From NCBI GenBank assembly GCA_947561395.2, contig OX387195.1, forward strand, positions 1,687,828-1,751,827: a DNA stretch of 64,000 bases, given 5' to 3'. The notes under the pieces were generated by a model, which ran no database searches, had not been told where the DNA came from, and saw only the letters and a list, made by a program, of their open reading frames with translations. This document shows, piece by piece, positions 3,038 to 30,353 of the stretch. Within the stretch, counting starts at the first letter, position 1; the number at the start of each line of letters is the position of its first letter. A program made the translations under genes and the position numbers. The stretch comes from Buxus sempervirens (Eukaryota > Streptophyta > Magnoliopsida > Buxales > Buxaceae).

Positions 3038-3179
3038 GTATCCGGTATATCAGACCGGATACACAAGGGCCTTAAGGTATCCGGTATATGATACCGGATA
3101 CACTAAGGCTCACTTGTATCCGGTACGTCTCACCGGATACACAGAGGAGTACTTGTATCCGGCCTGAGTTACCGGATAC
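3038..3179. repeat. 39-bp-period palindrome array (3' LTR)
   Basis: Four 25-bp inverted repeats at 3038-3062, 3077-3101, 3116-3140 and 3155-3179, spaced exactly 39 bp start to start. Each has arms GTATCCGGT and ACCGGATAC (unit 4 has GTATCCGGC) around a variable 7-bp centre; the 14-bp spacers differ. Confidence 0.95.
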
Positions 3180-3269
3180 AGGTAAAAGTTCATTTTCTTC
3201 AATTTCTGTGCTGACTTTCAAGGAGATAATGATTTTTGATCATTGTTTGTGCAATTTGGGGTGTCTACA

Positions 3270-3284
3270 ACTGCCCCTCTTTGC
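3270..3284 (-). promoter_or_regulatory. Polypurine tract of the giant element
   Basis: Minus-strand GCAAAGAGGGGCAGT directly abuts the start of the 3' LTR (TGTAGACACC). It would prime plus-strand DNA synthesis. The same core, AAAGAGGGGCAG, is at 35099-35110 in the gag-only element. Confidence 0.9.
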
Positions 3285-3667
3285 GGGAGCTGCGAAGCAG
3301 TGAGCTGCAAAGATTAGACAAGCCCAAATTGCACTCCCTTAAGCATGATTTGCTTGATTGAATTCAATTTTGTAAAAACAAATTTTGGGTGGAGATTTGC
3401 CAAAAAGCCCTAACTTTAAGGGGGGCATCATCTCCAAGAGTTCTTAAATTCCACTGAGCTCTCGTGGCTATGAAGTGGATTTTAAGCCCTAAAAATAGGA
3501 TTTTTTGAAAACTGATTTTTTATCAAACCAAGTTAAAAATTGAGTGGATATTCTCCTTTTGACCAGCACATTTCCTAAGGTTGTCCTAAATTCCACTGAG
3601 CTCTCGTGGCTGTGAGGTTGATTTTAAGGCAAAAATAGGACTTTGTGAGAAAATAGTGGAATTTATA
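3285..3667. other. Non-coding spacer with a diverged direct repeat
   Basis: No gene seen. A segment beginning TTAAATTCCACTGAGCTCTC (about 3444) recurs about 140 bp later (about 3588) with small changes. Confidence 0.55.
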
Positions 3668-3875
3668 GCACAATTTTGCTCTTTTTCTCTTTTTTTCCCT
3701 CTCATTTTCCTTTTTCTTTTCTTTCTTTTTTCTTTTTTTTTTTCTTCTTTTTTTTTCTTTTTTTTTCTTTTTTTTTTCTTTCTTTTTTTTTTTTCATTTC
3801 ATTTTCTGTTTTTTTTTCTATTTTTTTTTCTGTTTTTTTCTATTTTTTCTGTTTTTTTTTTCTTTTTTTTCTTTG
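3668..3875. repeat. T/C-rich low-complexity tract
   Basis: About 200 bp of almost pure pyrimidine on the plus strand (runs of T broken by single C). It gives spurious poly-Phe reading frames. It lies just upstream of the palindromes and TATA-like box of the first antisense gene. Confidence 0.9.
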
Positions 3876-3939
3876 GTATCCGGTATGTGTATTCGGATAA
3901 GCAAGGGCTTGCTTGTATCCGGTCTGAGTGACCGGATAC
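3876..3939. repeat. 39-bp-period palindromes upstream of antisense gene 1
   Basis: Two units, 3876-3900 (imperfect right arm) and 3915-3939 (GTATCCGGT and ACCGGATAC arms), 39 bp apart. A TATA-like box follows 6 bp later. Confidence 0.9.
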
Positions 3940-3945: not shown

Positions 3946-3955
3946 TTTTATAAGT
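3946..3955 (+). promoter_or_regulatory. Putative TATA box of antisense gene 1
   Basis: TTTTATAAGT immediately after the palindrome pair; the pyrimidine-rich leader CTTTTCCCCTTCTCTCC follows about 15 bp later. Position, not experiment, supports it. Confidence 0.5.
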
Positions 3956-3974
3956 CGCGCGCGACCGCGACTTT

Positions 3975-5368: not shown

Positions 5369-8143
5369 ATGGCTAGGAGTTGTTCTCGCGTTCGGGAGGA
5401 GGCTGACCCTGCTGATCAGCCCTCCACTTTGCGGGCTCGGACAGAGGCGAGTTCCAGCGCCACCTTGTCGGAGCCACTAGATGTCTCTCGGGAGAGCTCT
5501 GCTAGGGTAGGTTTTCAAATTCTTTTCTTCCTTCTATTCTCTTCCTACACCAATCTTCACACCTTTCTCTTGAAATTTAGCCCGTGGTTGCACCTGCTCG
5601 GGGTCGAGGCAGAGGTCGAGGCCGGGTTCCTGATCAGGCCCTTGAGGGCGAGAGAGGTCGTGGTCGAGGCCGAGGCAGAGCCGGAGGTGCAGCTCAGGAG
5701 GGTACTACTGTAGCTCTGGCAGGGGTCTCTGAGGAGTTGAGGGCCTCTGTTCATGATACAGAGCTCCTCCGTGGCTTGGATAGCCACCCTTCTATGTGCA
5801 TCAGGGCTGATGTGCCGCTTCCGTATCACTCCTCCCATTTGCGAGGCAGTTGGGGGAGATTCAGCGAGTTGGCCCAGTCACTTTCTCTGGCCCTCCGGCG
5901 CGAGTTTGGGAGGTGTCATCTGGACCATTTCCTTAGCATCCCATCCTTCAGAGCCGATCGTCCGCTCATTTTTGCTATGATGGAGAGATATTTCCCGGAG
6001 ACCCAGTCATTCCATCTTCCGGACGTGGAGCTAGGGATCCGCCCCTCAGATTTTGTGATGATCACTGGTATTCCGTTGACGGGGCGGACCATTGTCTTGG
6101 AGCGGCCTTCTGCGGAGGACGTCGGCCTTCTCTTGGGATATCAGGCCTTGCCACCTGCTGCTTGGGATGGGCGGAGTGGTCGTCTTTCCATTAGCTGGCT
6201 GCGAGAGAGCCTGGCTCGTCATTACGACGGGAGACATGCGACCATCTCCGTGGAGGATGCAGATTTTGTGCCTATCTTTCGGCATGTTTTCTTGCTGATG
6301 CTTGGGAACTACTTTTTCCCGGAGGATACCACCAGTGTCAGCCCACTTTTCTTGGACACTTTGAGAGATCTTCGTCAGACCCGCCAGGTGGCATGGGGCC
6401 GACTCATCTATGGGACCATCCTGGCCGGGTTGTGCCGAGCTGTTCGAGGCCTGGCATCCCCGAGAGGCGATGGAGTTAGCAGCCGGTTCTTCTGGCAGAT
6501 TCTACAGGTATAGAATTCATCTGTCTGGTTTAATTCCTTAGGCTTTATTTTCTTGATCTCTGACTGATTTTTATTTTGTCAGGTGTTTATGTACACCTAT
6601 ATGACTTTCTTCGGCCCATCCCCGGTACCTGAGGTCGCGGATTTCCCTGTGGCTTTGCGATGGTCGGCCCAAGTCCGGGATGCTGATAGGAGTCAGCCCC
6701 GCACCGCTCGGGTGCACTTGGACCGTGCCCGCCGACCTGATGTAAACCCTTTATCCTTTTCCTTTTTTTTCCTTTTATTTCTTTTCCTGTATCTTGACCG
6801 CATCTGACTATTTCTTTTTTTTTGCAGCTCCTCCTGTCCCGATTTGATGACGTGGACATCGAAGTGGCCCGTGAGATGGCGGTACAGGATGCCTTCAATA
6901 GAGATCGACGACGTCAGCCCTACCAGTGCTTCCTCGGGAGGCTTGGTAGGGTGATGTACTTAGGAGAGCGCCTGTACTTCCAGTACACCAGCGCACTTCG
7001 TATCCCCGTTCTTCCTCCTCCTGTGGGTCCCGACACACTCCTCCCCGGCTTTGATGTTGATCAGTTCGATCACTTCCTGGATGCAGAGGGGCTCACAGTA
7101 GCTGGGGATTACGACGAGTGGTTCCAGAGGGTATCTATTGGATGCTTGATGGATCGACCCACTCGTGCCGGGGTGACCGAGATCGGCGGGATCCGTATCC
7201 GGATCCATGAGGACACAGTAAGTCTTGTACTCTTCATATTTTCATCTTTTCTTCCCTTATGTATTTCTAATCCCACTTCTGTTCTTGTTGGCAGGTACAT
7301 GAGCTGAATACTATCCGGGACCGGTTCGAGAGTCAGCGGGCCGCGATCGATGATATGATCGCTGAGCACGATGCGGTTGTGGCCCAGCGGGATGCCCGAA
7401 TCAGGGAGCTGGAGGCCCTGGTTGCTGAGCTCCAGGCTAGACAGGTATCTGGCCTTCTTATATTTTCATTCGTTTCATTTTCCTATTTCTGCTATTCTGA
7501 TATGCTTGCTTGACTTGTACAGGGCCCGGTCCCAGATCAGGATGCTGCCTTCGAGCCTGATTTCCTTATTCCTGACCCGTCTCCTGCTCGGGCTACGGAT
7601 CCTGTGGATGTCCCAGGTGCTGATCCTGGTGATGCTACACCTACTGATGCCCCAGCTGCTCCTACGGATGCCCCGGCTGTTCCTTCATCTCCAGTGATGG
7701 TTCCTGAGCCGGAGGAGGTCCTTGCTGCTGACCCAGTGGATCCAAATCCCCTAGTCCCTGGTATGTTTTCCTTAGTTTCTTCTCTTTTGTTCATCTTGGT
7801 ATCCCAATTCCTGATTTTTCTCCATTTGGTACAAAATATTTCTGCTCCTGGCCCTTCTTCTGCTGCCGGGCCTTCTGGACATGCGGGAGCAAAGACTGCT
7901 GTAGCTGAGGGTCCAGTTGAGCCCGTACCTGCTGAGCCCGAGGCTTCCTCCGATTCTGTTCCTGTCCCTTCTCCCGACACGTCGGACTACTGCATCGAGT
8001 ACCAGCTTCAGTCCTTCATAGGACGGAGACCGCGCTATATGGCGGAGCGCCTCCTGTCCTATTATAGGCGCCGACCATCTCGAGGGAGAGGCCGTAGAGC
8101 GCGTGGTAGAGGGCGCGGGGATAATCCTGCACAGGAGCAGTAG
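5369..8143 (+). CDS. Plant mobile domain (PMD/MAIN-like) protein, antisense gene 1 of the retrotransposon
   Basis: Spliced model: 5369-5506, 5581-6507, 6583-6741, 6828-7217, 7295-7444, 7523-8143. All introns have GT...AG ends and phase 0, giving about 794 residues with no internal stop. The N-terminus has an RG-rich stretch (about residues 52-85). A plant mobile domain of the aminotransferase-like/MAIN type follows (about 95-480: LRGLDSHPSM, DHFLSIPSFRAD, HLPDVELGIRPSDFVMITGI, WLRESLARHYDG, FLLMLGNYFFPED, WGRLIYGTIL). Next come a short coiled coil (exon 5), a Pro/Ala/Asp-rich linker and an RGRG-rich tail. A further intron (GT at 7761) may have existed, but its acceptor is unclear and the frame stays open through it, so it is read through here. 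Family members include host MAIN/MAIL genes and retrotransposon-captured copies; biochemical function is unknown. Introns can persist because the gene is antisense to the genomic RNA. Confidence 0.8.
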
Positions 8144-8334: not shown

Positions 8335-8476
8335 GTATCCGGTCTGATATACCGGATACATTGATTGGTCTTTGTATCCGGTATAACATACCGGATACTC
8401 ATGGCCTCCTTTGTATCCGGTATACTTAACCGGATATGAATAAAACCTTGTTTATCCGGTCTGAGTTACCGGATAA
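8335..8476. repeat. 39-bp-period palindrome array upstream of antisense gene 2
   Basis: Four units at 8335-8359, 8374-8398, 8413-8437 and 8452-8476, all exactly 39 bp apart, with TATCCGGT and ACCGGATA arms. The preceding 190 bp (8144-8334) is the 3' region of antisense gene 1 and has no gene. Confidence 0.95.
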
Positions 8477-8488
8477 ATTAAAAGATAC

Positions 8489-8495
8489 TATAAAT
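8489..8495 (+). promoter_or_regulatory. Putative TATA box of antisense gene 2
   Basis: TATAAAT, 12 bp after the last palindrome. A transcript would begin near 8515-8525, just before the coding-like region. Confidence 0.55.
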
Positions 8496-8512
8496 GCCAC
8501 CAGCCTCGGGAT

Positions 8513-10362
8513 TTGAGCATTTTTTACGAGTTTTTGAGTTTAGAAACCCCCTTTTTCGCCTTTTTCTTCCTTCTCTTGAGTTCTAGCTTGCTCCCATCAC
8601 ATCCAATAGAATCTGGATCATTTTCTGCCCCATTATTGTCTGTCCACACTGCATCCTCTGCAAAACAACCTTTTAGATCAAAACTCCCAAATCTCACTAG
8701 GTACAACCCTGTGGATTCCTTTTACACAAGATGGGTTAACTCTATGACCCTAGATGAGGAAAGGAGATGGGATTCTACTAATCTAGGCTATACCTTGCTC
8801 ATTCCCAAGGTTCCCTTCAAGTGGGAGATTATAGAGGCCATGATTGGTCATTGGGTACCGGACCTCAACCTTTTCCGTTTTGGGACCCATGAAATGACCC
8901 CAACCATTGAGGAGGTGGAAACCATCCTGGGCTTGAGGTTTGATGAGAAGGTGGTGAATCCACCTCTTAGGCCCAGTTACAAAAAGGAAGCTTCTACATT
9001 CTTGGGCATAGGGAAGAAGGACTTGGGGGATTCTGACACCCTTTTGACCCTATCTAAGGCTTTTTTGACTGAGAAGCTTTTGAGGGGGGAAAATAAGGAG
9101 GCCCGGTTCAACGCCTTGACCCTGATAGTGGTCAACCAGCTGCTTTTCCCACGAGATGATGATGAGGTGGATTTGGCCTTGATTTCAGTGATATGCCAGG
9201 TTAGGGAGCGGGAGAGGTTGGCCCCTATGATTTTGGCTGGGATGTATCAGGCCTTGACTGATTGCTACAATAGGAAGTCAAAACGCTTCTTAGCATGTGC
9301 CCAGATCCTGCAGGTAAAAAAATTAGAAAATTTTTTTCCTTTGCCTTTTTTTTTCTTTTTTGCTTTTTTGCTTTCTTTTTTTGCGTTCTTTTTGCTTTTT
9401 TGCTTTTTTGCTTTCTTTTTGTTTTTTTTTCTTTTACAATGTGCTGATATATCTCTTCTCCTTTGCAGCTTTGGCTACTTGATCATTTGAATCAGATTGA
9501 GGAAATCAATCGACACTTCTTCCCGAGCTTGAAAGTCCCCATCTTGATGAGCAACCGGGGGTGTCCCGATATTCCAGGGGGCAAACAGGGCTGGTTCACT
9601 TTCTTGGGCTCACTTCAGAATGACCAGGTGAGATGGCCTGGTACTTATCAGCCCAATGCGGAGATAGTGATTAGCTTTCATGACCGCAATTTTCTGATCC
9701 TAGCTGGCCTGAGATATGCAGTGCTGTATCTTCCTTTGCGGGTCCTTCGTCAGTTCTGAGCGACCTAGGGGATTGTCATCCCAAGTGGGTATGAGGACTG
9801 TCTTGGGCCCCTTTCTCCAGATACCATGAAGCTGAATGCCTGGTTGATGAGGGAGTGGTCATATGTTCGCTTTATGCATGGCCCCGTTTTCTCAGAAACC
9901 CATGTGAAGGATTATCTCTTCTGGATCAGGGAGCAGATACACAGTCAGGCACCCGTACCCAAAGATCCTCCTGCAGTCTTGGCTCCTACTTATGAGGATA
10001 TTTTAGAGTCTGAGAGGGCTTCCCACAAGCGACTTCAGCAGATATGGGTACGAGAGGCCCAGGAGCTTAGGATACGGGGCCTTGATATGGAAAGGCAACT
10101 TGCAGAACAGGTATCTCGCCGTCTGGCTATGGAGAAGCAACTTGAGGAAAATAGGCAGGCTCGCTGTCTTGAAGTCCGAGCACTGCGGCAGAAGCATCAG
10201 GATGCTTTAGCCAGCCTTAGGAGCATGAGGATTAGGCAAACTCTTTCAGATGAGGTCATTTCCTTCTTAAGTGATCCCGCTGCAGAGGGGGCTTCTGGGG
10301 TTATCGCAGCTTAGGCAGCTCGGATTCGGGAGCTTGAGGAGAGGCTAGGAGACAGAGATTAG
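8513..10362 (+). pseudogene. DUF7745-like (PMD-related) protein, antisense gene 2, disrupted
   Basis: Exon 1 runs to 9313 (CAG|GT) and exon 2 starts at 9469 after TTTGCAG; the intron is T-rich. Exon 1 reads WEIIEAMIGHWVPDLNLFRF, EMTPTIEEVETILGL and FNALTLIVVNQLLFP. Exon 2 reads LWLLDHLNQI, WFTFLGSLQND, MREWSYVRFM and then a coiled coil (ESERASHKRLQQ to LRQKHQDAL). This resembles the DUF7745 proteins common in plant genomes and related to the mobile domain; function unknown. In-frame stops sit at 9757-9759 (TGA), 9766-9768 (TAG) and 10312-10314 (TAG); after each the frame still reads as the same protein, so these are recent breaks. No ATG is found before 8744 in frame, although coding-like sequence starts earlier; the original start may be lost. 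Confidence 0.7.
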
Positions 10363-11465: not shown

Positions 11466-11473
11466 TATAAAAG
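11466..11473 (+). promoter_or_regulatory. TATA box of the solo LTR
   Basis: TATAAAAG followed by GCCGCGCAAGG; 29 bp downstream of the GCGCTCACC palindrome. The equivalent in the second copy is CTATATAAG at 27255-27263. Confidence 0.6.
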
Positions 11474-12061: not shown

Positions 12062-12375
12062 GCTGAGCTCGCGCTCACCTAGCTTGGGTCCGCCCACTTC
12101 GCGCCGAGCTCGCGCTCACCTTGCGCCGAGCTCGCGCCCACCTCGCGCCGAGCGCGCGCCCACTTCTTTTTGGGTGCGCTGAGCTCGCGCCCACCTGGCG
12201 CCTAGCTCGCGCCCACCTCGCGCCGAGCTCGCGCCCACTTCTTTTTGGGTGCGCTGAGCTCGCGCCCACCTGGCGCCTAGCTCGCGCCCACTTCTTTTTT
12301 CGTGTTTTTTCGCTGTATTCGGTCCGCCCATTTCGCGTCGACCTCGCGCCTACTACTTGAGGTTGGCGCCTACCC
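12062..12375. repeat. GCGCYCACC-type repeat cluster in the solo LTR
   Basis: About 15 variants of GAGCTCGCGCCCACCT in both orientations. The motif is the same as in the palindrome upstream of the TATA box of this LTR. It yields spurious basic reading frames on the minus strand. Confidence 0.85.
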
Positions 12376-14173: not shown

Positions 14174-15579
14174 TCAAGGAAAATACCTTTTTACTGCATC
14201 AGAGTTAATTGGCTCAGGAAAATCTGACCCCTCCATTTCTGTCAAGATGAGTGCACCCCCTGACAGGACCTTCTTGATGACATAAGGCCCTTCCCAATTG
14301 GGCTTGAACTTACCACGAGGGTCTTCCAAAAATGGTAAGATTTTCTTTAGAACTAGGTTTCCTTCTTGGAAAGTTCTAGGCCTCACTTTCTTATTGTAGG
14401 TCCGGGCCATTCTCCTTTGGTACAACTGGCCATGACATAGTGCTTTTAACCGCTTTTCTTCTATCAGGTTGAGTTGATCATGTCTTGACTGTACCCATTC
14501 GGCTTCTTCCAGTTCTGCTTCCTTGAGCACTCTGAGTGTGGGATTTCTACTTCCACTGGCAAGACTGCTTCCATCCCATAGACTAGGGAATACGGGGTTG
14601 CCCCGGTTGAGGTCCGGATCGAGGTTCTGTAGGCATGTAGAGCAAGTGGCAGCATTTCATGCCAATCCTTGTAGCTTACTACCATCTTCTGAATGATTTT
14701 CTTTATGTTCTTGTTTGCTGCTTCCACTGCCCCATTCATCTTTGGCCTGTACGGAGCTGACTTATGGTGGGTGATCTGAAACTGCTCACACATCTTCTTC
14801 ATGTCCTTGTTTTTAATATTCGAAGCATTGTCTGATACTATGGCACTTGGCAGTCCATAGCGACAAATGATATTGTGCTTCAAAAATTTAATAACATGGT
14901 TGCCTGTGATGTTCGCATATGATGCTGCTTTCACCCATTTAGTGAAGTAATCAATTGCCACTAGGATGAATCTGTGCCCGTTCAATGCCTTAGGGGAGAT
15001 CATGCCAATAACATCTATGCCCCACATAGAGAAGGGCCATGGTGATGTCATGTTGTGCAACTCACCTGGGGGTGCATGCTTGTTATCTGCATATATTTGG
15101 CATTGATGGCACCTCCTGACATGTATACAGCAATCATGCTCCATGGTCGTCCAGTAGTAGCCCAACCTCAAGATCTTCTTTGCAAGCATGTGTCCACTCA
15201 TATGGGGCCCACAAACTCCTCCATGTACAGTCTCAATCAACCTTTCCGATTCAGCTTTGGCAACACATCTGAGCAGAATGTCGTTATGTGACCTCTTGTA
15301 CACATGTCCCCCACTTAGCAGAAACTGACCAGCCAATCTCTGTATTGTCCTCTTTTCAGTAGCAGTGGCATTTTCTGGTAAACTCCGATTGTTCAAGAAA
15401 TTTTTGATATCTTGAAACCACGGTGCTTCTTCTTCTGGTGCTCCCTCTAGAACGAGACAGTAAGCCGGTTCATCTCTAACCTCAATTTCCAGCGGTCTGA
15501 TGTCTACTCCTTCTGGTATGCTGACCATTGAAGCCAAGGTTGCTAGAGCATCCGCAAACTGATTCTTGGCCCTTGGCAT
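14174..15579 (-). pseudogene. pol: Integrase of the giant element, frameshifted at its C-terminus
   Basis: From 15579 the frame holds a zinc-binding region (HMSGH, then CHQC) and the catalytic core with D189 (WGIDVIG), D250 (VSDNASN) and E286 (GAVEAANK), numbered from MPRAKNQ; D250 and E286 are separated by 35 residues, the D,D(35)E spacing. Near 14535 the reading passes to another frame (14530-14174) that continues with KRLKALCHGQLYQRRMARTY, GNLVLKKI and GPYVIKKVLSGGAL, the usual C-terminal domain of Ty3/gypsy integrase. The enzyme inserts element DNA and gives 5-bp duplications. The core triad is present, but the shift makes the full protein untranslatable. Confidence 0.9.
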
Positions 15580-16624
15580 ATAGTTGAAGGAAATTCGAGA
15601 AATTTGTGCTTATTTCTTCCAAATACTGGTGATAGGGGATCAATTTATGATCCTTGGTTTTCCATTCACCAGTTGTTTGGAAGATGATAAGACTCGAATC
15701 CCCGTATACGTCAAGTTCCTCTACTCCATGATCCACGGCTGCTTGCAATCCAATTATGCATGCTTCATATTCTGCTATGTTATTGGTGCACTGGAATCTC
15801 AGCTTTACTGCAATCGGGATGTGTGAACCATCTGGTTTGACCAAGACTGCCCCTATTCCATTACCATTCATGTTGGCGGCCCCATCAAAGAACATCTGCC
15901 AAGAACTCTCACTGTCCTCCTCTTCAGTGTACAGAATTGCCTCATCTGGGAAGTTGGTCTTCAAGGGTTGATATTCTGGCAGAGGATGTGCAGCCAGGTG
16001 ATCAGCTATGGCTTGCCCCTTGATCACCTTCTGGGTGATGTATGTGAGGTCAAACTCGGACAGTAGCAGTTGCCACTTTGCCGTCCTGCCAGTCAGTGCC
16101 GGTTTCTCAAATAAATACTTCAGCGGGTCCATCCGGGATATCAATAGTGTGGAGTGACTAAGGAAGTAATGCCTTAGCCTCTAAGTGGCCCACACTAGAG
16201 CACAACAAGTCTTCTCCAATGATGAATACTTGGCTTCATATTCCGTGAATTTTTTACTTAGATAGTAAATGGCCCTTTCTTTTCTACCAGTCTCATCGTG
16301 CTGCCCCAAGACGCATCCCATCGATGTTTCCAACACTGACAAGTACAGGATCAGTGGTCTTCCTGGAGTTGGTGGCACTAGCACAGATGGGTTCAGTAAA
16401 TATTCCTTGATCGTATCGAAGGCCTGCTGGCAATCCTCATTCCAGGCCGCCGGGTTATCCTTCCTCAGAAGCTTGAAAATTGGTTCACAGATAGCCGTGA
16501 GCTGCGCTATGAACCGGCTTATGTACTGAATCCTCCCGAGAAAACCACGAACCTCCTTCTCGGTTCTGAGTGCTGGCATTTCAATTATGGCCTTGGCTTT
16601 AACCGGGTCAATTTCAATTCCTCT
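15580..16624 (-). pseudogene. pol: RT connection and RNase H of the giant element
   Basis: The frame runs on from RT: EVRGFLGRIQYISRFI, then QQAFDTIKEYL (RT thumb/RNase H-like part). A TAG at 16181-16183 follows LVWAT; a second RNase H-like domain comes next (MFFDGAANMNGNGIGAVLV, NNIAEYEACIIGL, LDVYGDSSLI). The shift into the integrase frame is near 15590. Two RNase H-like parts before integrase are typical of the Tat lineage (archaeal-type second RNase H). Confidence 0.85.
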
Positions 16625-17563: not shown

Positions 17564-18195
17564 AGGTAAGGGGAGTTTCCTCCCAATTGTTCAGTACAAA
17601 ATTTTTGGGAGCAGGGGAAATAGGGAAAGCCTGCTCCTCAAGCCCAGCATCCGATGCCATCATCACCGGGTGGGTACTGCCCTTTTCTGCTACGGGACCC
17701 AGTCCAGATATAACCTCATCCGGAATCTTCACTGCGGCCCAGTCAATGAAAGGTAGCTCGTTGTCACTACCAGTTTTCTCGCCTTCAGTCATGGCGAAGA
17801 AAGCCCCCACATCTTCAGAGAAGTCTGTCCGCTGCTCTGGTTGTGGCCCAGGCCCATCGGCTGCTCCCAGTATAGGAGATGGGTTATATGGTTGCAAGGC
17901 CGAAACAAAAGGCTTTTGAAATGGGTTGAGGTTGTAGTAGGGAGGCTTGGACTGATCCATAGGAGGAGACAGTTGGATTATATATGAGGGTTTAGGGAAA
18001 CTTTCCCTTAAATGAGGGTGTTTTCCTTTACTTCTTTCCTCTCCTTCTTCATGCTTCATCCTCCTCCAGCCTCTGGGTTGAAGCCCAACCCTACTTTAGG
18101 GATCAGTTTCTTAGCCGTGATTGGCTCCACCATCCCCTGTAAATTGATTCCCAGGCCTTTCCCCGGGTGAAAGTGGTATTTTTCCATCACTTTCT
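17564..18195 (-). pseudogene. pol: Protease-RT linker of the giant element
   Basis: Acidic, low-conservation frame (18059-17490) containing ELPFIDWAAV and LNNWEETP. Directly upstream (18195-18070) a different frame reads EEMVKKVMEKYHFHPGKGLG then INLQGMVEPITAKK, a G-patch-like junction common in these elements. At least one frameshift links it to the protease. No catalytic motif. Confidence 0.65.
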
Positions 18196-19032
18196 TCACC
18201 ATTTCTTCTGCAGTGGTCCCCTTTTCCTTCTTTTTCTCACACCCCCAGGTATGTAGTTGACTGCCTCAAATTGGAAGGAGTGGAATGCAATCTTGTCGAC
18301 AGTCAAGTCCACATTGATTAAGGGTACATCAGGTGACACTATGGGTGGCACCAAGTTTTCGGCTAGGACTGTTATCACCCTTTGCCCTCTTACATATTTC
18401 ACCCTTTGGTGGAGCGTGGATGGTATTACCCTAGCCGAATGTATCCACGGCCTCCCTAGGAGTAGATTGAAGGCTGCGGGTATATCCATCACCTCAAATG
18501 TAATGTTGAAGATATTCGACCCAATTGTGACTGGCAGTTCAATCTCCCTTAGGGAGTGGGTCTTGGAGCTATCAAAAGCCCTCACTATCCGCCCATTTCG
18601 TTTGATCCTGGATTGGTCTAGACTCAGCTTGGTAAAAGTGATTAACGGGCAAACGTTTAACGCCGACCCGTTGTCAATTAAAACCCGTGCAATCATGCAG
18701 CCCTTACAAAGCACAGTGATGTGCAAAGGGTCCACATTATAACACCCACCTGAGTTGATCTCACCCTCTGAGAAACTTATCACATTATGTGACAAGATTT
18801 GACCAACCATTTTACCAAGCTGGTCTGGATCAATGGTCTGGGATACGTGTGCACTCTGTAGCACCCTTAACAATGCATCCCTGTGCTTTTCAGAATTCAG
18901 CAAAAGGCCCAGTATTGAAATCTGGGCCGGGACCTTGTTCAACTGATCCACAAGATTGAATTCACCTTTTTTTATTATTTTTATGAGGTCTGCTGCCTCA
19001 TTTTCTGCACCCTGGGGGGTGTCTTCTCCCAC
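18196..19032 (-). CDS. pol: Aspartic protease region of the giant element
   Basis: About 278 residues. The active-site motif is VLIDNGSALNVCP (D-N-G-S), followed by FEVMDIPAAFNLLLGRPWIH, the usual second conserved block. The enzyme cuts Gag and Pol. The frame starts without a clear ATG (GTG at 19032); with Gag ending at 19166 in another frame, it was probably expressed by frameshifting or splicing. Confidence 0.85.
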   Translation of the reverse strand: MGEDTPQGAENEAADLIKIIKKGEFNLVDQLNKVPAQISILGLLLNSEKHRDALLRVLQSAHVSQTIDPDQLGKMVGQILSHNVISFSEGEINSGGCYNVDPLHITVLCKGCMIARVLIDNGSALNVCPLITFTKLSLDQSRIKRNGRIVRAFDSSKTHSLREIELPVTIGSNIFNITFEVMDIPAAFNLLLGRPWIHSARVIPSTLHQRVKYVRGQRVITVLAENLVPPIVSPDVPLINVDLTVDKIAFHSFQFEAVNYIPGGVRKRRKRGPLQKKW

Positions 19033-19165
19033 TTTATTTTTTCCTTTTTGTTTTCTTTTTTCTTCATTTTCTTTTTTTTTCTTTTTCTACTTCTGTCTCT
19101 TTCTCTTTCTCTTCACCCCCTGCACATCTCCCTGACCTCGTCATGAGGTTCACCTCCTCTTGGTT

Positions 19166-21271
19166 CTAGTTACTAACCTTTGGAACCGTAGCCGCGGTTC
19201 CCTCGCTGTAATTCCATGGTACAGTGGCCTCAGAATAGGCTAGTTTGTGGATGTTAACCACTAGTGGCTGGAGTTTGGACCGGGATGTATGGGCCGGTTT
19301 AGGGATGGTCTGGGCTGGCTGCACATTTACAACCAAGGGTTGAAGTTTGGATTTTGTGGGGACAGAAGAAGTGATAGAAGCAGTGGTGGGGTCAATGTTG
19401 ATGACCAGTGGAGCCTTGGACGGCTTGGATGGTGAATAAATGGGTGGACTGCAATTGAAGACCAATGGGGGCCTTGCAGTATTCATCTGGGCCATCAGAG
19501 CAGAGACCCGGTTTAAAGAGGAACTTATGTCCTCAGCAGCTGGATTATTTTTCTGGGAGACCATGTTGATCTCCTCTTCTTCTTCTTCTTGGAAAAAACG
19601 GACCTGGACAGTGGTCCCTACTGGAGCTATGAGTTGTGATGGGTCAAAGGCCCTTTTGGTGGTGGATATGGCAGTGATGGAGTTGGATGGGCCTGCCCCA
19701 TTATGGTACGGCAGAGGGTTCTGCCCAATATTATTCCCGGACGGTGCGGGTGCAGCAGTGTTAAAAACCAAGGCCTTCTGGTCCAACAAGTCCTGGACCG
19801 CGTGCTTCAACACCCAACAAGCATCTGTAGAGTGCCCCGGTGCACCCATGTGGAAGTCACAGGTGACTGACGTGTCAAAATTTCTTCCCCTGGTGGCATT
19901 CGGGTTGGGCTCTTTCAGAGTCAGGTATTTACCCTTCAGCAAAGTTGGCAGCAGTTGGGAAAGAGATATTGGGAGAGGAGTGAAAACCCGGTTCTTTCTA
20001 TTTGCTAACCAGGCCTCTCTTTCCTCCCTGGTAAAGGTCCTCCTTGGGTTAGCTGGCACGGAGGGGGTGAAATTGACATTCAGCGGGGTTTGGTACGATT
20101 GCTGGGCCTGTTGGGGTGCCGAGATGTTCACGTGAAGTGGCTTCTTGGCTGGAGGGGCCTGGACCAGGTTCACCTCCCCTTCTTTTTGGTCCCCGTTCTT
20201 CTTGAATGCGGCTCCCTTCTTCTGGGCCATGGAGGCAGAGGAATCAGACTGCCCAGTTAGAGTTGAGTAGTCTATCAGCCTTCCTGACTTGACCCCTTCC
20301 TCGATCCGGTCCGCTACTTGCACCAGGGCTGCAAAGTTGGTGGTGATTTGGCCCACCAAATGGTTGTAGAAGGGCTGCCCCAGCGTGCCCATGAATGTGG
20401 AGATCATCTCCGGTTCTTGCATAGGTGGCTTGACCTGGGAGGCGGCCTCTCTCCACCTCTTGGCGTACTGTCGTACCGGCTCATCCTTCCCCTTGCTCAT
20501 CCTCATCATGTCGTACCGGTCTGGCACGATCTCAGAGTTAAACTTGTACTGATCCAGGAACGCATCAGCCAAGTCCTTCCACCTCCTGATTCTTCCATGG
20601 TCCACTGTGGCGAACCACCTGAGAGCTGACCCGGTCAAACTTCTCTGAAAGAGTTGGATTAATATGCCGTCATCCCGGCCAAATTGGCATAGGGCCCCGC
20701 AGTACAATTTTAAGTGGCTCAATGGGCAGCCCGTGCCATCAAATTTGTCAAAGTCCGGGCACCTGAACTTGGCCGGTAGACATACGTCAGGATACATGCA
20801 CAGATCTTCGAAAGTGGTGCCTGCATGGCTGCTTCCCCCCTTCACTTCCTTCAGCTCTGCCTGGATCCTTTCTATCCTGAGCAGCATCTTTTTTTCCATC
20901 TCTTCTCTGGCCTTTTCTTTCTCCAGCTCTTTCTCTGATTCTGCTATATTTTCCCTGATCAGAATGGGTTCAGGGACTGGTTCAGAAATGGGCCCTGGCA
21001 TGGGTTGAGTCGGAGGCGGTATGTAGGCCTGCGGTGGTGGTGCCTGATGAGAAGTCGATGCTTGATTTTGGGCCTGGGCCTGTTGGGCCTGAGCCGCCAG
21101 TAAGTCTCCCAGCATCTTGGCCAGACCAGCCACTTGCTCCTGTAGCTGAGCAAAGTCTTGAGCGGGTACGGTGGCATGGGCTTGGTTCTCTTCAATGTTC
21201 ATGGCTCTGGTTTTGGATCTGGTCACGGGAGCAATGGTTGCAAATAATTGTACCTGGATCAGGAAAAGCAA
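19166..21271 (-). CDS. gag: Gag of the giant element
   Basis: 701 residues, uninterrupted. Order: Gln/Pro-rich N-terminus with coiled coil (about 105-145), Retrotrans_gag-like domain (about 165-335: CPDFDKFDGTG, LTGSALRWF, WKDLADAFLDQY, KRWREAASQV), and zinc-knuckle-like CDFHMGAPGHSTDAC (471-485). The C-terminal third is repetitive, with recurring PLVVN and PLVFN phrases. Forms the particle that packs element RNA. It is the only sense ORF of the element still fully open. ATG at 21271 is the first in frame; NIEENQ at about residue 25 could mark a shorter form. Confidence 0.9.
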   Translation of the reverse strand: MLFLIQVQLFATIAPVTRSKTRAMNIEENQAHATVPAQDFAQLQEQVAGLAKMLGDLLAAQAQQAQAQNQASTSHQAPPPQAYIPPPTQPMPGPISEPVPEPILIRENIAESEKELEKEKAREEMEKKMLLRIERIQAELKEVKGGSSHAGTTFEDLCMYPDVCLPAKFRCPDFDKFDGTGCPLSHLKLYCGALCQFGRDDGILIQLFQRSLTGSALRWFATVDHGRIRRWKDLADAFLDQYKFNSEIVPDRYDMMRMSKGKDEPVRQYAKRWREAASQVKPPMQEPEMISTFMGTLGQPFYNHLVGQITTNFAALVQVADRIEEGVKSGRLIDYSTLTGQSDSSASMAQKKGAAFKKNGDQKEGEVNLVQAPPAKKPLHVNISAPQQAQQSYQTPLNVNFTPSVPANPRRTFTREEREAWLANRKNRVFTPLPISLSQLLPTLLKGKYLTLKEPNPNATRGRNFDTSVTCDFHMGAPGHSTDACWVLKHAVQDLLDQKALVFNTAAPAPSGNNIGQNPLPYHNGAGPSNSITAISTTKRAFDPSQLIAPVGTTVQVRFFQEEEEEEINMVSQKNNPAAEDISSSLNRVSALMAQMNTARPPLVFNCSPPIYSPSKPSKAPLVINIDPTTASITSSVPTKSKLQPLVVNVQPAQTIPKPAHTSRSKLQPLVVNIHKLAYSEATVPWNYSEGTAATVPKVSN

Positions 21272-21434
21272 AGAGACATGTCAGCTCCCATTTAATCTGA
21301 GTCACACACCTATAAATGTAGATAAGTAGGTCAGGTGAACACCAGCCCAGATTTTTTGTTTTTTTATTTTTTATTTTTATTTTTATTTTTATTTTTATTT
21401 TTATATATTTTTTTATTTTTTGTTTATTTTTTGT
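21272..21434. other. Leader next to gag, with (ATTTTT)n
   Basis: Short non-coding leader; 21360-21434 is a simple (ATTTTT)n-type tract. Confidence 0.8.
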
Positions 21435-21437
21435 TTT

Positions 21438-23040: not shown

Positions 23041-24993
23041 TTCTTTTTTTTTTTTTTCCAAATTTGCTGAATTTTCTCAGTTTTCAAGTTCAAAAGTTTG
23101 ACTGACACATGTTTGAATTGAGTTGGTATCAAAAAATATGACACCTTGGTTCCTTCTTTGAGTTTCCACATTATGTTTAATCTTAAAGGAATATATATAT
23201 TTTTTATTTTTTTATATATATATTTTTGACATTTTTGTATTTTCTTTAGGATGCCTAAGGATTATCCACAGTGTTTAGGCATTTTATTCTGAAAATTTGG
23301 GCTGAAAAGCCAATTTGTGCATTTTTTGAATGTATCCGGTATAATATACCGGATAAGCATATGCCTTATTGTATCCGGTAACCATGACCGGATACACGCA
23401 TATGTCTTTGTATCCGGTAATATATACCGGATATGAAGGAAAGTGTTCTTAACCGGCCTGAGTTGCCGGTTAATGCTGAAATGGCCATTTTTGACTTATT
23501 TTTTCACCAGATTAGGTTTTTTCATTCCCACTTGATGTTCACTTTAATTTGACCTTCAAAACTTGCCCCAAATTGGGCTTGGACATCATACTTGCAAAAT
23601 TCCCAAATTCATGAAAATAACATGGCTTTACCTTGCCACCTTGTATTACCTTCAATATGGTATTCATAGTATACCTTGGCCTGTAGAACATGCAAACGGC
23701 CTTCCCACATTTACACCCAATTCCCCAAACGCAATTGTATGCTTTTAGCTGAAAACGTGTTTCTCCACTTTCAAGTGTATGGTTTTTGGGTTTTGGCTTA
23801 ATTGGCAACTTAGAACTCAAGTCTAGTGATGCCCGGAATCGAATCACAGATCCCATTGTCATCACATCATTGACTCAAATTCTAAGGTAAATGTTTTCAC
23901 TTTTGCTTTCCGAAGTCACGACCTCGGTGTGCCAAGCTACACACATTCATGGTTCAACTTCCTATAGGTAAAAGGGTAGGTTGTGCAAAGTGTTTATTGT
24001 GCTCAAGTGCAATTTAAAATTGTGGTAACATTCACAACGTCCCAGCCCCTTGCCACTTTTTTTCGTAGCCATGCATTCAATTTCAAGCCAAGGCACATAT
24101 GACAATGTAATGAAGTTAAATATAAGCAAGCAAGGGAACCAAAGCAACCAAATATGCACACAAGTATTACATGCCCAAAAAGTGGTATACAAACATGTCA
24201 TTTGAATAACAATTGAACCATGGAAGCATGCTTGAAACCCAAAAGCACTCCCTAAAATTCCAAATTTTCATGCTCTTTTTCATGCCCAAAGTGTACCATT
24301 TCTACCCAAGTTGAAGCCTAAAAATTTAGCATTACTTGACATGGTCCAAAAAGTGTTTCGATTTGGTAAAATATGCTTGAAATCTCCCAAATCATACACT
24401 AAAATTTCCAGATTTTTTTTTATTGCTTTCATGCTCAAAGTGTATCACTTATACCCCCAAATTGATGCCTAAAATTTTAGCACTACTTGACATGATACAA
24501 GAAAGGTTTTGATGGTAAAAACATGCTTGAAAACCCCCAAAATATACACTAAAATTTCCAGATTTTGTATTCTTTATCTTTAGTGCTCAACATGCTTCAT
24601 CCATGCCCAAATCAAAGCCTAGGAATTCAATCACTAAAATATGGCATAAGAAAGGTTTAAATTGGGGAAAACATGCTTGGAACTCTCAACATATACCCAT
24701 TGAGTTTACTGAATTCATGCACTTCATTTTCATGCTCAAAACATGGCACTAAAAACCTCCCAAGACAAGGTACAAAAATATAACAAGTAGGCATGCACAC
24801 CAAAATAAGACCATAAACATGATCTTAGGCATAATCCAACCATATGCACATGCCTTTATCCATGTAGATTTCAAAGCATCCCAATCAGATTTCAAGATAC
24901 AACAATATGTACAAATAACATAAGTAAAATAGCAAGCATTCACAAGCAAAGAAAGCATGAACAAAACACCCAAAATTGGCTTAAATCCAGATG
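23041..24993. other. 5' leader of the giant element
   Basis: Non-coding. Holds a palindrome array (23332-23473). From about 24230 to 24760 there are four diverged direct repeats of about 120 bp with CATGCTTGAAA and CACTAAAATTTCCAGATTTT phrases. No gene. Confidence 0.7.
23332..23473. repeat. 39-bp-period palindrome array in the leader
   Basis: Units at 23332-23356, 23371-23395, 23410-23434 and 23449-23473. The first three have TATCCGGT and ACCGGATA arms; the fourth has TTAACCGG and CCGGTTAA arms, where both sides changed together. Confidence 0.95.
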
Positions 24994-25011
24994 TCCCCAG
25001 CAGAGTCGCCA
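24994..25011 (-). promoter_or_regulatory. Primer binding site (tRNA-Arg-like)
   Basis: Minus-strand TGGCGACTCTGCTGGGGA, two bases after the LTR end. It starts with TGG (complement of CCA) and matches the acceptor arm of a plant tRNA-Arg ending GAGTCGCCA, the primer reported for Ogre-like elements. Confidence 0.85.
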
Positions 25012-26416
25012 GTTGTGAGACATGGGAAAATCACCGGAATGATCATCCCTCCGTCAACACACGGGGCTCGAAATAAAAAGTGGGAGAGTCGCCACCATTC
25101 AGAATTTTGGGTGTGAATGGACACCAAAATATTCAAAAATCATCAAAAAGTGTAAAAAGGCAAATTCTAGGGTAAAAATAACCATACTTGAAAATCAAAT
25201 CCAAAGATGGGTAAGGGGATTAGATTATGAACGGGGGAAGGTGTTAGGCACCCCCATTCATCCACACGAAGTGGTAGCCAAGTGTATGTTCATGCAAAAA
25301 TAAGAAAACTTGCTAAAATCATAGAAAACCTTGAAAAAGAACCAATGTATGATATTTTCACATGAAGATCTAAATGGATTCTAAATCCTCTCTTATGTCA
25401 ATATCATTTCTGGAATATCTCAAAAGATGGAAATCAAAGCACAAGTCATTCAAAACCAAGTTGAATCAAATCCGGAAAATTCGGTGAAAATTAATGCCAT
25501 TTGTCTTGAAATCATTCAAATACAATTTTAAATTGAACCAAACTAAATTCATTTGAAACATTACAGTAAATAAGAGTCTCATGCAAAATTTCACTTCATT
25601 TCGATAAAAATCCTAAGAGTTATGCTCCTTTGAAGTTGCTGCTGGGGATTTTTAAAAGTGATGACTGGGCAACTTTGGGAAATTGCATAGAAAAATCCAC
25701 TCCATAAAAATCCACGAAATTTGGTGTGATTGAAGTCTGTATGGCCATCTTTCAAAAGAAACTAGCCTCATGCAAAAATCCCTTTGGATGTGCCTTGGGT
25801 GATCTCTCGAACAGGCCCCGAAGATCACAGATTTACCCAGAAAAGTACAAATGAACAGTTCTGAGTAAATCGGCTACCAATAATTCAAATGGAATCCAAA
25901 AATTATGAAACCAACTGGATTTGAAAATAGACTCATAAAGGAGTACTCAGAAACAAAAATCACTTGAATCGGACTTAAAACGAACACATGGCGGTCCGTC
26001 GAAGTAACAAGTTCTGTATTTGAACCTGAACTGTCCACTCAACTTCGACAGAGAGGTGTCAAAAATCCGTTCGATAGAAATTTATGAACCTTGGTGGACA
26101 TAAACTAGACAGGATCACCTTTCCCATGGTTCTGGAATCGCTCCAAAATTCATCCGGACGATGAAGTTATGAGCGTCCGAAGTAAGAGTACATGTGTTGT
26201 CCTGTCAGGCCACTTTTTGAGTAAAACCAACTCAAAACTGTGATAAAGTGTGTGAGATTCGTGTGAGATGAATCCAAAACCTAAAAAAATCACTTGAAAA
26301 CACTCCAGAATTGATTGAGGCCATTTATATGAGATTTATCATAATGAATGTAATAAACCCCAAATATGAGCCTATCCCGTCAAAATGGTGCTATGTATGT
26401 GCAAATGTGAGAAACC

Positions 26417-29400
26417 TGTAAGCACCTTATTTTTGCACCCCCGGAATTGCTGAAAATGAAAACCCTGGTAGAAAGTCAAACCCCGAGGGGACAAAAAGTT
26501 GACTTTTTCATTAAGTGATATTTGGCCACCTTACTTTATATCATTGGATAGAGAATCTCGACACGATTCCAATGCAACTGAGTTTGCAGGAATCGGAGTC
26601 CGGATGAAGGTTCGGCGGGCAGTCAAACTTAAGGGAGAGCCGAAAGTTGACTTTTTCCCGAATTCCGTGCCAAGTGCTTAGCCCCATATCATTGGATATA
26701 GAATCTCGACACGGTTCCAACGCAACTGAGTTTGCGGGAATCGGGGTCCGGATGAAGGTTCTGCAGGCGGTCAAACTTGCGCGGAGCCAAAAGTTGACTT
26801 TCTGCTAAAATCCGATCCGGAGGCCTACCCCTAGGTCATGGGATGGAGGGCTCCGATACGATTCTAATGAAACTAAGTTTGCCCAGATCGGAGCCCGGAT
26901 GAAGAAAATATGAGCTGGCGAAGTTCCCGAGCAGCAAAACCGGCGAACTGCGCACGTGGCAAAAAGCTGCACACGTGGCGAGTTGCGCAGAAAAATATCT
27001 CGGGGATCAAATCCATAAATATCCAAACATTCAAAATATCCCAGGGACCAATCTGAAAGTATTTGAAAATATCTGAATAAAATAATATTAAACCTAAATA
27101 TCCCAGGGACCATATCCTAATTTTCAGATTTTTAAACAAACGAGCAGCGGCATTTATTGTTTTGTAATAATTATGCCGCTCGCGCAAACGTGGCGAGCGG
27201 CATGCGCTCACCTTGAGCTGGGCGCCAAGGTGAGCGGCACCCCATTTCCTTTGCCTATATAAGCCGCGCAGGGTTTCATTTCAGGGGTTGGAAAATTTTG
27301 GTTTGGTTGGCTGATTTCGGGTTCGAAATTTTGGGTGAGGTTCCGCGATTTTTGGGGTTGGCTGATTTCGGGTTGGGAAAATATTGGTTGGGTTTTCCGG
27401 GATCGGTCATTTGAGGGTTTGCTGTTCTTCAGCATTCGGGGTTTGGATTTTTTTTGTTGGGAGATTTTTCTTTGGCCGGGCATTCTCTGGTTTTGGGATT
27501 CTAGGGTTCGGCATCATTTTTCTGGGCTCGGGGTTTTGAAGATAAAGACCAGACACACAGGTCCCCTCCCTTCCTCTTCTTCCTCGTCAAATCCGAAGGA
27601 GGCCGCGCTCTTGGTGTGAGAAGAAGGTTGCTCCGGCGGCCGCTCGCGCGCTCCAAGGAGGCTTCACCCACTTCGGAGAGGTGTTAGGAACACCCAGGTA
27701 ATGTTCTCAATGGCCCCTGTTCCAAAATAAATAAGTCCATTGCTATCTATTCTTTTCTGTTATTTCGTATAGTAACAGTGATTGTGTGATTCGAGGGGGG
27801 AGCATGTTCTCCCTGATGTTTGCATCAGTTGTACCCCATAAAGCCCCCAGTCCCCTTCCTTTCATGTTCTGTTAGTGTTTAGGTGTTCGGATTTGCAGGT
27901 TTGCAAGGAGGTTTGATTTTCATAAAAATGTGTTTAGATTAAATCCAAAATTAGTTGGGAGGTGTTCTGGGCATGTTAGGAGGCTAGTCGAGCAGTTACA
28001 GACCGAAAAAAACCGGCCAGAGATGGAGATCTCAAAAAAACAGAGAGTTGAAAATTCAGTGACCTGCCGCCCATCTGGCGCCCACCTGGCGCTCACCTAG
28101 GAGGTGGGCGCCCCTTTCATCCCACTTCCCGCCGAGCTGGCGCCCACCTGGCGCTCAGCTCGCGCCTACTAAAAACCAAGCGAAATTCTCGCGCCCATCT
28201 CGCGCTCACCTCCCGCCCATCTCGCGCTCACCTGGTATCGGGTGAGCGCCAGGTCAAAATTTCGCCCGGATTCTGGCGCCCATCTGGCGCCCACCTGGCG
28301 CTCACCTTAGGAGGTGAGCGCCAGGTCCAAAACTGGCCGAATTGTTATTTTTTTTTTAAATTCCAAAAATACCCCTTACCATACCGCGGGGGCTTCGCCC
28401 CCCGCACCCCCCACCCCTTGGTTCGCTGCGCATCCAACTCGTACCTTGGACCCAGCACAATGAGCCAATTTTTTCTTGATCGGGTGTCAATTTTGTGCAT
28501 TTTCTTATGGATTATTGCTGAATGTGGGCTTTATTTCCAAACCGAACCGGATGAACCAATAGGGTTCCCGGGTCACCCGGAAACCCAACATGGGCCATGG
28601 ACCAACCCGGTCCAAATTGATTTCCGGTGGGCCTTCCAACGGGGCCCACCAAGCCCGACCAACCCATTCATGCTTAAATAAGATAAATAAGAGATTCGAG
28701 TGGGCCAGACCAATTGAGGCCCACCCAAGCCCTAATTGGGCCATGCATGATTAAAGTAGGATGTGGTTTGGCCGAGACCACGGGTAGGGCCTATCGGGCC
28801 CACTAAGCCCATGAACCCGACCAACTTAGGGTTTCCAAACCCTAAGTCAGGAAGCCTTGGGCTTTCAAGCCCAAACCCAGGTAAAGGGCCCCAAGCCCAG
28901 TACTTGGCCCGTGTTGGCACAGATAAGAAAGATAAAATCAAAATCACTTGGCAACCAATTGTGGGGCCAACTCAATGGCCCACAAAGCAATCCCGGCCCA
29001 CTTTTGGCATGAAATCCACTTAACTAAATCCAACTTGAACTCTAAAGTAAAATCAATTCAAAGTGAGCCAAAATCCAAAGGGCCACACTTGGCCCCCCAA
29101 GGAACATGCGGGCCACACTTGGCCCACCAAGGGATACCGTGGGCCTTCCAACGGGGCCCACCCCACCAGGCCCAGATCATCTTAATTAAAAAGATAAAAT
29201 CAAGTAAAGGGACCCACACCACTTTGGCGGTCCCGCCAGACTTAATCAAAATTGCATGCTAGAATAGGAATCGGGTGAGTGAGAGGCCAAAGTTGACTCA
29301 AACCAGGGAAACCTATGGGACCCGTCACTTGACGGGGTGGACTGGGGTGTCTACGGACTTCCCCAGACCGCAACCGAGAACCTACTTAGAATCTCAAGCC

Positions 29401-29540
29401 GCAGACCAAGCCTTAATAGAAGAACTTAGGCACCCAGGTGTCTGCCTGCACCCCATCAGGCAGTGGCGACTCCAAACAAATCCCGAGGCACGCGTCGTTT
29501 TGCGTGCGCCTCGCCGTGCGACCGAAATCGGGTGCGCACA
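26417..29540 (+). mobile_element. Solo LTR, TGTAAGCACC family, nested in the 5' LTR
   Basis: 3124 bp, TSD AAACC (26412-26416 and 29541-29545). Homologous to 10784-13622, with an extra direct repeat near its start (about 26640-26760). CTATATAAG at 27255-27263. The GCGCTCACC palindrome lies just upstream (from 27204), and a cluster of GCGCCCACCTGGCGCTCACC variants lies at 28068-28335. TGGCGACTCC is at 29464-29473. Confidence 0.95.
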
Positions 29541-30211
29541 AAACCATATAAGATCAATAGAACAACATAGCATGCATCAAAATAAGGTTCTAAACAGCCT
29601 AGGGTTCCGTTCCATTATCGTTTCCCTCTGTTCTCTCTCCCTGTTAAACACGGTTCTTCAAGATAATCAAGGGTACTTTGAATATGAAACGGTTTACAAT
29701 CAATCAAAAGGCTTTATGCTACATGGGTTCTAGCACTAGGGTCAATCCCCAGTCTCGTTTCTCCTAGATCCCGCCTCCACGTTTTACGGCTAGGGGGAGT
29801 CTCGAGATACTTTGAGCCGGGGAAGGATTTTCACACACAAAGAAGGCTTTACACTACAGAAAGGTAGAAGAAGAGATCTAGATCTAGGAATGTAAAGACA
29901 GAAAATAAAAAGAAAAGTTGAGGCTTACCTGAGTTTTGGAGGTGATTCCGCAGCGGTTTTCTTCTTCTCTTGGAGTTCTTCTTTGCGAGAATTCAAAACA
30001 AGAGTTCCGTGCCCCTTTGCTTAAGGAGGAGCCTCCTATTTATAGGCAAAGGTTAGGGTTAGGGTTGGTGAGAATGGTAGACACAACATAATGTCTATAG
30101 CCCACCAACCTTAACCCTAAGGCTATTTCCGAGATTTCCCCTCATTTAATGAAGGACATGATGGCAAAAGTGAAAAGCTCTCGGAAAACCCTAATTTTGA
30201 GCAAAACTTAT

Positions 30212-30353
30212 GTATCCGGTATATCAGACCAGATACACAAGGGCCTTAAGGTATCCGGTATATGATACCGGATACACTAAGGCTCACTTGTATCCGGTAC
30301 GTCTCACCGGATACACAAAGGAGTACTTGTATCCGGCTTGAGTTACCGGATAC
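30212..30353. repeat. 39-bp-period palindrome array (5' LTR)
   Basis: Four units starting at 30212, 30251, 30290 and 30329. Nearly identical to 3038-3179; one base in the right arm of the first unit differs (ACCAGATAC). Confidence 0.95.

Follow-up and report, generated by a model that had tools for sequence, protein, structure and literature searches.

Why does one transposable element carry the same short palindrome, repeated on the same grid, beside several of its promoters? The question is raised by the window analysed here, a stretch of 64,000 nucleotides from Buxus sempervirens (assembly GCA_947561395.2, contig OX387195.1, positions 1,687,828 to 1,751,827 of the forward strand), which contains element A, an Ogre/Tat-like retrotransposon with long terminal repeats (LTRs) and two antisense genes with a plant mobile domain (PMD), PMD1 and PMD2. 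A preliminary description of the sequence had reported five palindrome arrays and attributed them to a common trans-acting factor or RNA structure rather than to random tandem growth. Comparison with other copies in the genome makes it probable, though far from certain, that the arrays are operators, read by a dimeric or two-part factor encoded by the element, with a PMD1-containing complex as best candidate, and that they jointly activate or un-silence the promoters. The features concerned are listed below; unit starts refer to 23-bp dyad units.

980-30443, minus strand: element A, Ogre/Tat-like LTR retrotransposon, with the target site duplication (TSD) ATTTT at 975-979 and 30444-30448
980..3269, minus strand: left LTR of element A (3' LTR relative to gag-pol), 2,290 bp, defined by the LTR pair and the TSD
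25014..30443, minus strand: right LTR of element A (5' LTR), with a 3.1-kb insertion at 26417-29540 inside
Beginning at 2870, minus strand: TATA box TATAAATAG of the left LTR
3039..3178, minus strand: U3 array of the left LTR, 4 units starting at 3039/3078/3117/3156
3877..3938, plus strand: PMD1-promoter array, 2 units starting at 3877/3916
8336..8475, plus strand: PMD2-promoter array, 4 units starting at 8336/8375/8414/8453
23333..23472, minus strand: leader array of 4 units, lying between the 5' LTR and gag, starts at 23333/23372/23411/23450
30213..30352, minus strand: U3 array of the right LTR, 4 units starting at 30213/30252/30291/30330
5581..8143, plus strand: antisense gene PMD1, its several open stretches interpreted as exons; PMD match (PF10536, E=1.1e-13) in 5581-6513
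8477..10314, plus strand: antisense gene PMD2; PF10536 (E=6.8e-14) and DUF7745 (E=3.7e-17) in 8477-9490

Palindrome arrays on a common grid

The five arrays, with 4, 2, 4, 4 and 4 palindromes whose starts lie exactly 39 bp apart, are confirmed, and no equally spaced chain of at least three palindromes appeared in five block shuffles of the window (single bases shuffled inside 200-base blocks). The exact period holds for all arrays of element A; other copies deviate from it occasionally. In 99 arrays with 365 units from sampled copies, chained by admitting 37-41 bp only, 254 of 266 spacings are 39 bp, nine are 38 bp, two 40 bp and one 41 bp. A genome-wide search for CCGGATA-N(2-31)-TATCCGG found N=16, equivalent to the 39-bp period, in 17,900 of 20,414 neighbouring half-site pairs, compared with control counts of 92 for the variable gap and 0 at N=16. 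Other gaps among the matches listed are N=29 (left arm TATCCGGATA) and N=15 at three places, and a few arrays have wider gaps (64 in L040, 72 in L056 and 79 in L079).

Further copies sliced from the genome show the same order of LTR, leader, PMD2, PMD1 and LTR, with all five arrays read in elements E1-E4, four in E5 and three in E6. The 676.5-Mb genome holds 8,968 exact TATCCGGT-N7-ACCGGATA units (0 in the reversed control), and 5,483 TATCCGAC-N7-GTCGGATA units (control 0) come from other lineages. Units of the GAC/GTC arm type occur in two further LTRs of the window, whose arrays are homologous to those of element A and differ in their arms:

58192..60613, plus strand: solo LTR B, TSD ATGCC; GAC/GTC-arm units at 58294, 58333 and 58372; TATAAAT at 58563
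63762..64000, plus strand: LTR C, cut by the window end; 4-unit GAC/GTC array, starts 63865/63904/63943/63982

GAC-type PMD2 promoters were found at 46 places genome-wide (28 + 18; control 0). A search of viral contigs for such arrays gave 0 matches, and no published description was found in a literature search drawn mostly from papers outside subscription.

The arms are less variable than centres or spacers, and most comparisons show them to be less variable than the flanks as well. Mean column diversity of arms against other array columns is.040/.192 for the LTR,.030/.114 for the leader,.019/.108 for PMD2 and.072/.199 for PMD1, in alignments of 9 of 18 LTR sequences (one per element, leaving out B and C), 5 leaders, 7 PMD2 and 8 PMD1 promoters. 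Rank tests give p from 6e-8 to 0.005, to be taken as a guide only since the copies are related. Pairwise mismatch for arms/centres/spacers/flanks follows the same trend:.045/.242/.201/.083 in the LTR (one per element),.038/.143/.142/.091 in the leader,.022/.099/.143/.090 at PMD2 and.083/.189/.261/.235 at PMD1.

The arms had been described as kept and the 7-bp centres as varying, and both statements hold with exceptions. Several units of element A have changed arms: units 3156 and 30330 carry TATCCGGC, unit 3877 has the right arm TTCGGATA, unit 30213 in the U3 array of the right LTR has one arm ACCAGATA, and the leader end unit 23450 reads TAACCGGC CTGAGTT GCCGGTTA on the plus strand, both arms altered and their pairing intact. 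Nor do all centres vary freely: the last unit in plus-strand reading has CTGAGTT, CTGAGTG or TTGAGTT in five of five arrays, the LTR pair being counted as two. In the direction of transcription, the promoter-proximal centre starts with CTGA: CTGATAT in the LTR, CTGAGTT at PMD2 and CTGAGTG at PMD1; solo LTR B has CTGTGTT where element A has the CTGA form. The spacers are partly alike between arrays.

Judging from the changes within arms, dyad symmetry is the property that is kept. Mixed-arm units number only 194 genome-wide (105 + 89; control 1), against the 8,968 and 5,483 matched ones, and mutual information between the arms peaks on the pairing diagonal, with a sum of 1.10 versus 0.10-0.40 on shifted diagonals. 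In a sample of 194 distinct units chosen by positions 1-6, double changes at position 7 are paired in 56 units and unpaired in one, with 30 one-sided changes; at position 8, 76 are paired and eight unpaired. Position 8 is considered loose because of these eight and its 52 one-sided changes. For position 3 there is a mixed-arm count (207 + 165 = 372) lacking its matched counterpart, and it is not used. The preliminary description had named variable spacing, or arm pairing lost at a neutral rate, as signs in other copies that would speak against its reading; the copies read instead repeat the layout, keep the period, and preserve the arms better than centres and spacers.

Paired arms could also act as RNA hairpins in element transcripts, serving packaging, stability or processing. 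The dyads could fold, and half-changed states at position 8, read on the sense strand, are 11 T.G versus two C.A. At position 7, however, they split into seven wobble and ten non-wobble states, and sense-strand changes in the arm core are 18 C>T and 21 G>A, without an excess of the wobble-tolerated kind (29 of the 99 arrays were dropped from this test, their orientation not being callable). The arrays of three promoters also lie upstream of TATA-like boxes. RNA structure as common cause thus finds no clear support and, lacking a consistent wobble asymmetry, was rejected; we hold it to be very improbable.

Four of the five arrays stand by promoters: the U3 of both LTRs, PMD1 and PMD2. The inner end of the U3 array in the left LTR is ~168 bp upstream of the TATA box at 2870, and the distance in solo LTR B is likewise ~168 bp. 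TATAAG at 3949, a TATA-like sequence kept in five of eight aligned copies and replaced in three, comes 10 bp after the PMD1 array, and TATAAAT at 8489 comes 13 bp after the PMD2 array. All 30 PMD2 loci that were cut out have an upstream array, with four units detected in 29 and three in L071; these loci, among them that of the window, are the 30 best of the 150 that were scored from 5,247 first-look candidates. TATAAAT lies 13 bp past the array in 28 of the 30 and 12 bp past it in one, and one has TATAAAA. As a separate observation, GTCGCGCGCGACCGCGAC behind the PMD1 TATA-like box (3954-3971) is strongly conserved in copies with diverged surroundings.

Stacked dyads at 39 bp could phase chromatin, and CCGG is a methylation target in plants, so the arrays might have a role in placing chromatin (nucleosome phasing, for instance), in silencing or in integration instead of promoter activation. 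The adjoining core promoter at 28 of 30 PMD2 loci speaks against this alternative, to which we grant hardly any probability.

Arm type within elements and the antisense genes

The half-site can be written TATCCG(G/A)(T/C/A), and its base 7 differs between elements but not between the arrays of one element. The majority base 7 is uniform across the two to five arrays read per element, and this holds for all 13 elements: it is G in ten and A in three, and five arrays hold one dissenting half-site apiece. E7 and E8, both A-type, have leader arrays of this type too, that of E7 lying 11 kb from its PMD2. Between the leader arrays of E7 and element A, position 7 is changed in 8/8 half-sites, position 8 in 5/8 and positions 1-6 in 2/48, while the flank differs at 32/639 (95% alike), element A being G-type. 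The PMD2-promoter array of E7 has changes in 14/16 at positions 7-8 and in 1/48 at positions 1-6. One end unit of the E7 leader retains the leader-specific outer letters TAACC...GGTTA through the switch, and is thus no mere copy of an LTR array. Linkage explains the leader array less well than any other part of the concordance. Arm covariation and the concerted switch of arrays favour a DNA-binding factor, so that the earlier suggestion of a common trans-acting factor rather than random tandem growth is supported, the binding itself being predicted.

Such a factor could come from the host, with ordinary transcription factors binding the arrays as a U3 enhancer that is reused at the antisense promoters. 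LTR retrotransposons commonly have U3 enhancer repeats to which host factors bind, the arrays adjoin TATA-like boxes, and MYB-related (GGATA/TATCC) and AP2/ERF-type (CCGAC) proteins are candidate readers. However, G-type and A-type elements coexist in one genome, each uniform over its own arrays, and a host factor would not require the switch seen in four separate arrays of E7. Because lineages differ within one genome, a single host factor is insufficient, and we regard this alternative as unlikely. The coexisting types are most simply read as a sign that the element brings the factor along.

Of the two antisense proteins, PMD1 is the best candidate for the part that would read base 7, since in E7 and E8 it is PMD1, not PMD2, that diverges with arm type. 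The PMD2 domain of E7/E8 is identical to that of the window in 173 of 177 residues (~2% different), and PMD2 was therefore set aside as main candidate for the specificity part. PMD1 of E7/E8 is ~74% identical to the window's over 256-258 residues (~26% different), compared with 85-94% mutual identity among seven G-type elements, the window's included. E9, the third A-type element, has 76-79% identity to G-type elements in PMD1 and 88-89% in PMD2. As E9 (L100) is only 73-74% identical to E7/E8 in PMD1, that is, as distant from them as G-type elements are, the A-type PMD1 comprises only about two independent lineages. With this limit, arm type and PMD1 divergence agree in the ten elements whose PMD1 was read, seven G-type and three A-type. 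Seven PMD1 residues, 83P, 84P, 93K, 100T, 188E, 202I and 212T (numbered in the window frame from 5581), occur in the three A-type and in none of the seven G-type elements. The combination of a diverged PMD1 with a near-identical PMD2 in E7/E8 (L085/L088/L093/L102 and L086/L089/L094/L103) is itself a sign of recombination between lineages.

The proposed mechanism builds on the directly observed anatomy of the arrays, their placement by TATA-like sequences, the conservation and covariation of the arms, the agreement of arm type within elements and the PMD1 correlation. A dimeric or two-part factor encoded by the element would occupy the half-sites, of which each 23-25-bp unit offers two with cores 13 bp apart, in stacks of two to four units at 39 bp. 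Its occupancy would switch on, or shield from silencing, the LTR promoter and both antisense PMD promoters together, and the leader array may serve gag or some further transcript. Base 7 would be read by a complex that contains PMD1, with PMD2 as conserved partner, and by acting on its own antisense promoters the factor would form a positive loop. Protein binding, an origin of the factor in the element, its identity as PMD1 and an activating or anti-silencing effect are all predicted from sequence. The more specific version, in which PMD1 is the dyad-reading transcription factor of a private regulon and a shift in its base-7 specificity drags along all arrays in the LTR, the leader and the two antisense promoters, is put forward tentatively, as a serious possibility that falls somewhat short of probable. 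Rival lineages in one nucleus would then be on separate control circuits.

Several points weigh against the proposal of an element-encoded reader. In the E7 leader, centres (12/28) and spacers (18/48) have changed more than the flank, making gene conversion or recombination of arrays possible, and the flanks of the E7 PMD2 array diverge by 48/222 (22%) on the PMD1 side and 25/244 (10%) on the PMD2 side. Since E7 and E8 look recombinant, linkage of LTR, PMD1 and PMD2 array may explain part of the concordance. Of the A-type elements, only three (E7, E8 and E9) were read in detail; E7 and E8 are close relatives (94% in PMD1), the A-type PMD1 sequences form no tight clade, and in E9 PMD2 has diverged too, unlike in E7/E8. 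Several PMD1 frames contain stops, the copies being compared as they stand. At E<=0.1 the PMD exons match no Pfam family beyond PF10536 and, in PMD2, DUF7745, and hence not VANC, and PMD1 shows no recognised DNA-binding domain; neither PMD1 nor PMD2 exons have PDB relatives at E<=1, and the PMD2 domain has no relatives in the protein collection at E<=0.001. No clear TATA box adjoins the leader array. In LTR C, 18/64 arm positions mismatch the window copy, exceeding the flanks (31/160), because the arm type itself has switched. CpG is kept in 258/268 cases in arms and 132/147 in flanks, a small excess; with arms and flanks so similar, CpG retention was no longer taken to indicate hypomethylation.

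The changed centres and spacers of the E7 leader also count for a further alternative, namely that the arrays are tandem-duplication products without regulatory role, homogenised through gene conversion or through template switches that corrected palindromes while the element was reverse transcribed. Tandem arrays form readily in such elements, and the partly similar spacers would fit. Yet the leader-specific TAACC...GGTTA unit survives the arm switch, within an array the arms are better kept than centres or spacers, and the distance from array to TATA box at PMD2 is constant; this origin appears improbable to us.

If the operator reading of the arrays is true, the antisense genes that have been a puzzle in giant plant retrotransposons gain a function, and there is an explanation of how an independent regulatory circuit could be run by thousands of copies. 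PMD proteins, possibly including MAIN/MAIL1 of the host, would then have a role in reading DNA, testable with a defined site. G-type and A-type arrays, each with their own PMD1, would be natural matched pairs for mapping specificity. In tea plants, phased small interfering RNAs arise from 175 loci at PMD genes, according to the accessible text of the report (PMC10673657), and would fit host pressure on such genes.

Further features of element A and of the window

The Ogre/Tat-like assignment of element A is based on its gag-pol region and its ends.

14174..21280, minus strand: gag (19166-21280), reverse transcriptase, two RNase H matches and integrase of element A
24994..25011, minus strand: primer-binding site TGGCGACTCTGCTGGGGA, directly past the 5' LTR of element A

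The domains appear in the order Retrotrans_gag, RVT_1, RT_RNaseH (partial) and RVT_3, then Integrase_H2C2 and rve, which is the layout of Ogre/Tat Ty3-gypsy elements with integrase past RNase H and a second RNase H. The LTRs have TG...CA ends and the 5-bp TSD, and their sense strand starts with TGTAGACACC and finishes with TCTCACA. Ogre elements have an additional open reading frame upstream of gag and a pro-RT intron. The primer-binding site TGGCGACTCTGCTGGGGA is presumably of the tRNA-Arg type. Use of tRNA-Arg by Ogre elements is reported in the accessible part of PMC9289625.

A 3.1-kb LTR-like piece (TGTAAGCACC...) is present twice inside element A, once in the right LTR (26417-29540), where a short duplication borders it, and once in the internal region (10784-13622). 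Minus both insertions, element A measures ~23.5 kb. Its leader (21440-23043) also contains a long 76/78-bp tandem repeat close to the leader array.

Other palindromic arrays occur elsewhere in the window. The 28 tandem units listed at 31676-33480 keep a 6-base loop, ATTCAC or its variants ACTCAC/ATCCAC, while both sides of their stems vary: CCATGT/ACATGG, CAATGT/ACATTG and TAATGT/ACATTA are fully paired and CGGCGT/ACGCTG pairs in 5/6. This pattern, with the loop fixed and the stem variable, is the reverse of that in the main arrays. In another LTR-like sequence (35684-35901), GCCCGTA...TACGGGC palindromes recur every 28-29 bp, the last stopping 14 bp short of TATAAAT at 35915. Three dyads of 8+7+8 bp at 28-bp spacing lie at 52921-53000, with arms GATCCGCA/TGCGGATC, CAACCGCA/TGCGGTCG and TGACCGCA/TGCGGTCA, and a further palindromic array of 39-bp period, with arms of the CCGAAATT/AATTTCGG kind, at 55649-55753.

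Comparison with known systems

VANDALs are DNA transposons, and their VANC family is related to DUF1985. In the accessible text of the studies found, they provide the closest published analogue: the anti-silencing VANC proteins of Arabidopsis VANDAL transposons bind short motifs amassed as tandem repeats, and the motifs, together with the protein, differ between related families (PMC5735166, PMC10398659). Common to both systems are a transposon-encoded factor, here predicted, and a short tandem motif in noncoding parts. The VANDAL motifs YAGTATTAY and AGTTGT(C/A)C are not described as palindromes in the available part of PMC5735166, whereas element A carries dyads, and that text describes neither a fixed 39-bp period nor a PMD match. 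The present case further differs in that the element is an LTR retrotransposon, its dyads follow a fixed grid at several promoters, and the protein family is another one.

Retand/Tat elements carry antisense TRP28 genes, whose products are predicted to bind DNA, as well as internal tandem arrays that vary, as far as the accessible text goes (PMC11963269). They resemble element A in their antisense genes between pol and the 3' LTR, proposed to be DNA-binding regulators, and in their internal tandem arrays, but encode TRP28 rather than PMD, and the same text describes no shared promoter arrays for Retand (PMC11963269).

In Arabidopsis, MAIN and MAIL1 (PMD-C) are tied, with PP7L, to the promoter DOWN motif, direct binding of which is left open in the accessible parts of the two reports (PMC7156037, PMC9899485). 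The likeness is that these sources, too, connect PMD proteins with a DNA motif in promoters, and with the activation of genes or the silencing of transposable elements. MAIN and MAIL1 are host genes, however, and the DOWN motif given there for the MORC1 promoter, CATGCAGTTT, is unlike the arms by eye. A newer paper reportedly describes modules of PMD proteins and DNA motifs; it did not turn up in the literature search.

Foamy-virus Tas and HTLV-1 Tax are element-encoded transactivators that act on LTR U3 repeats, Tas also on an internal promoter. They belong to vertebrate retroviruses, and their proteins and sites are not known to be related to those described here. A self-encoded factor combined with operator arrays is a known principle, and its predicted setting in a giant plant retrotransposon would be the novelty.

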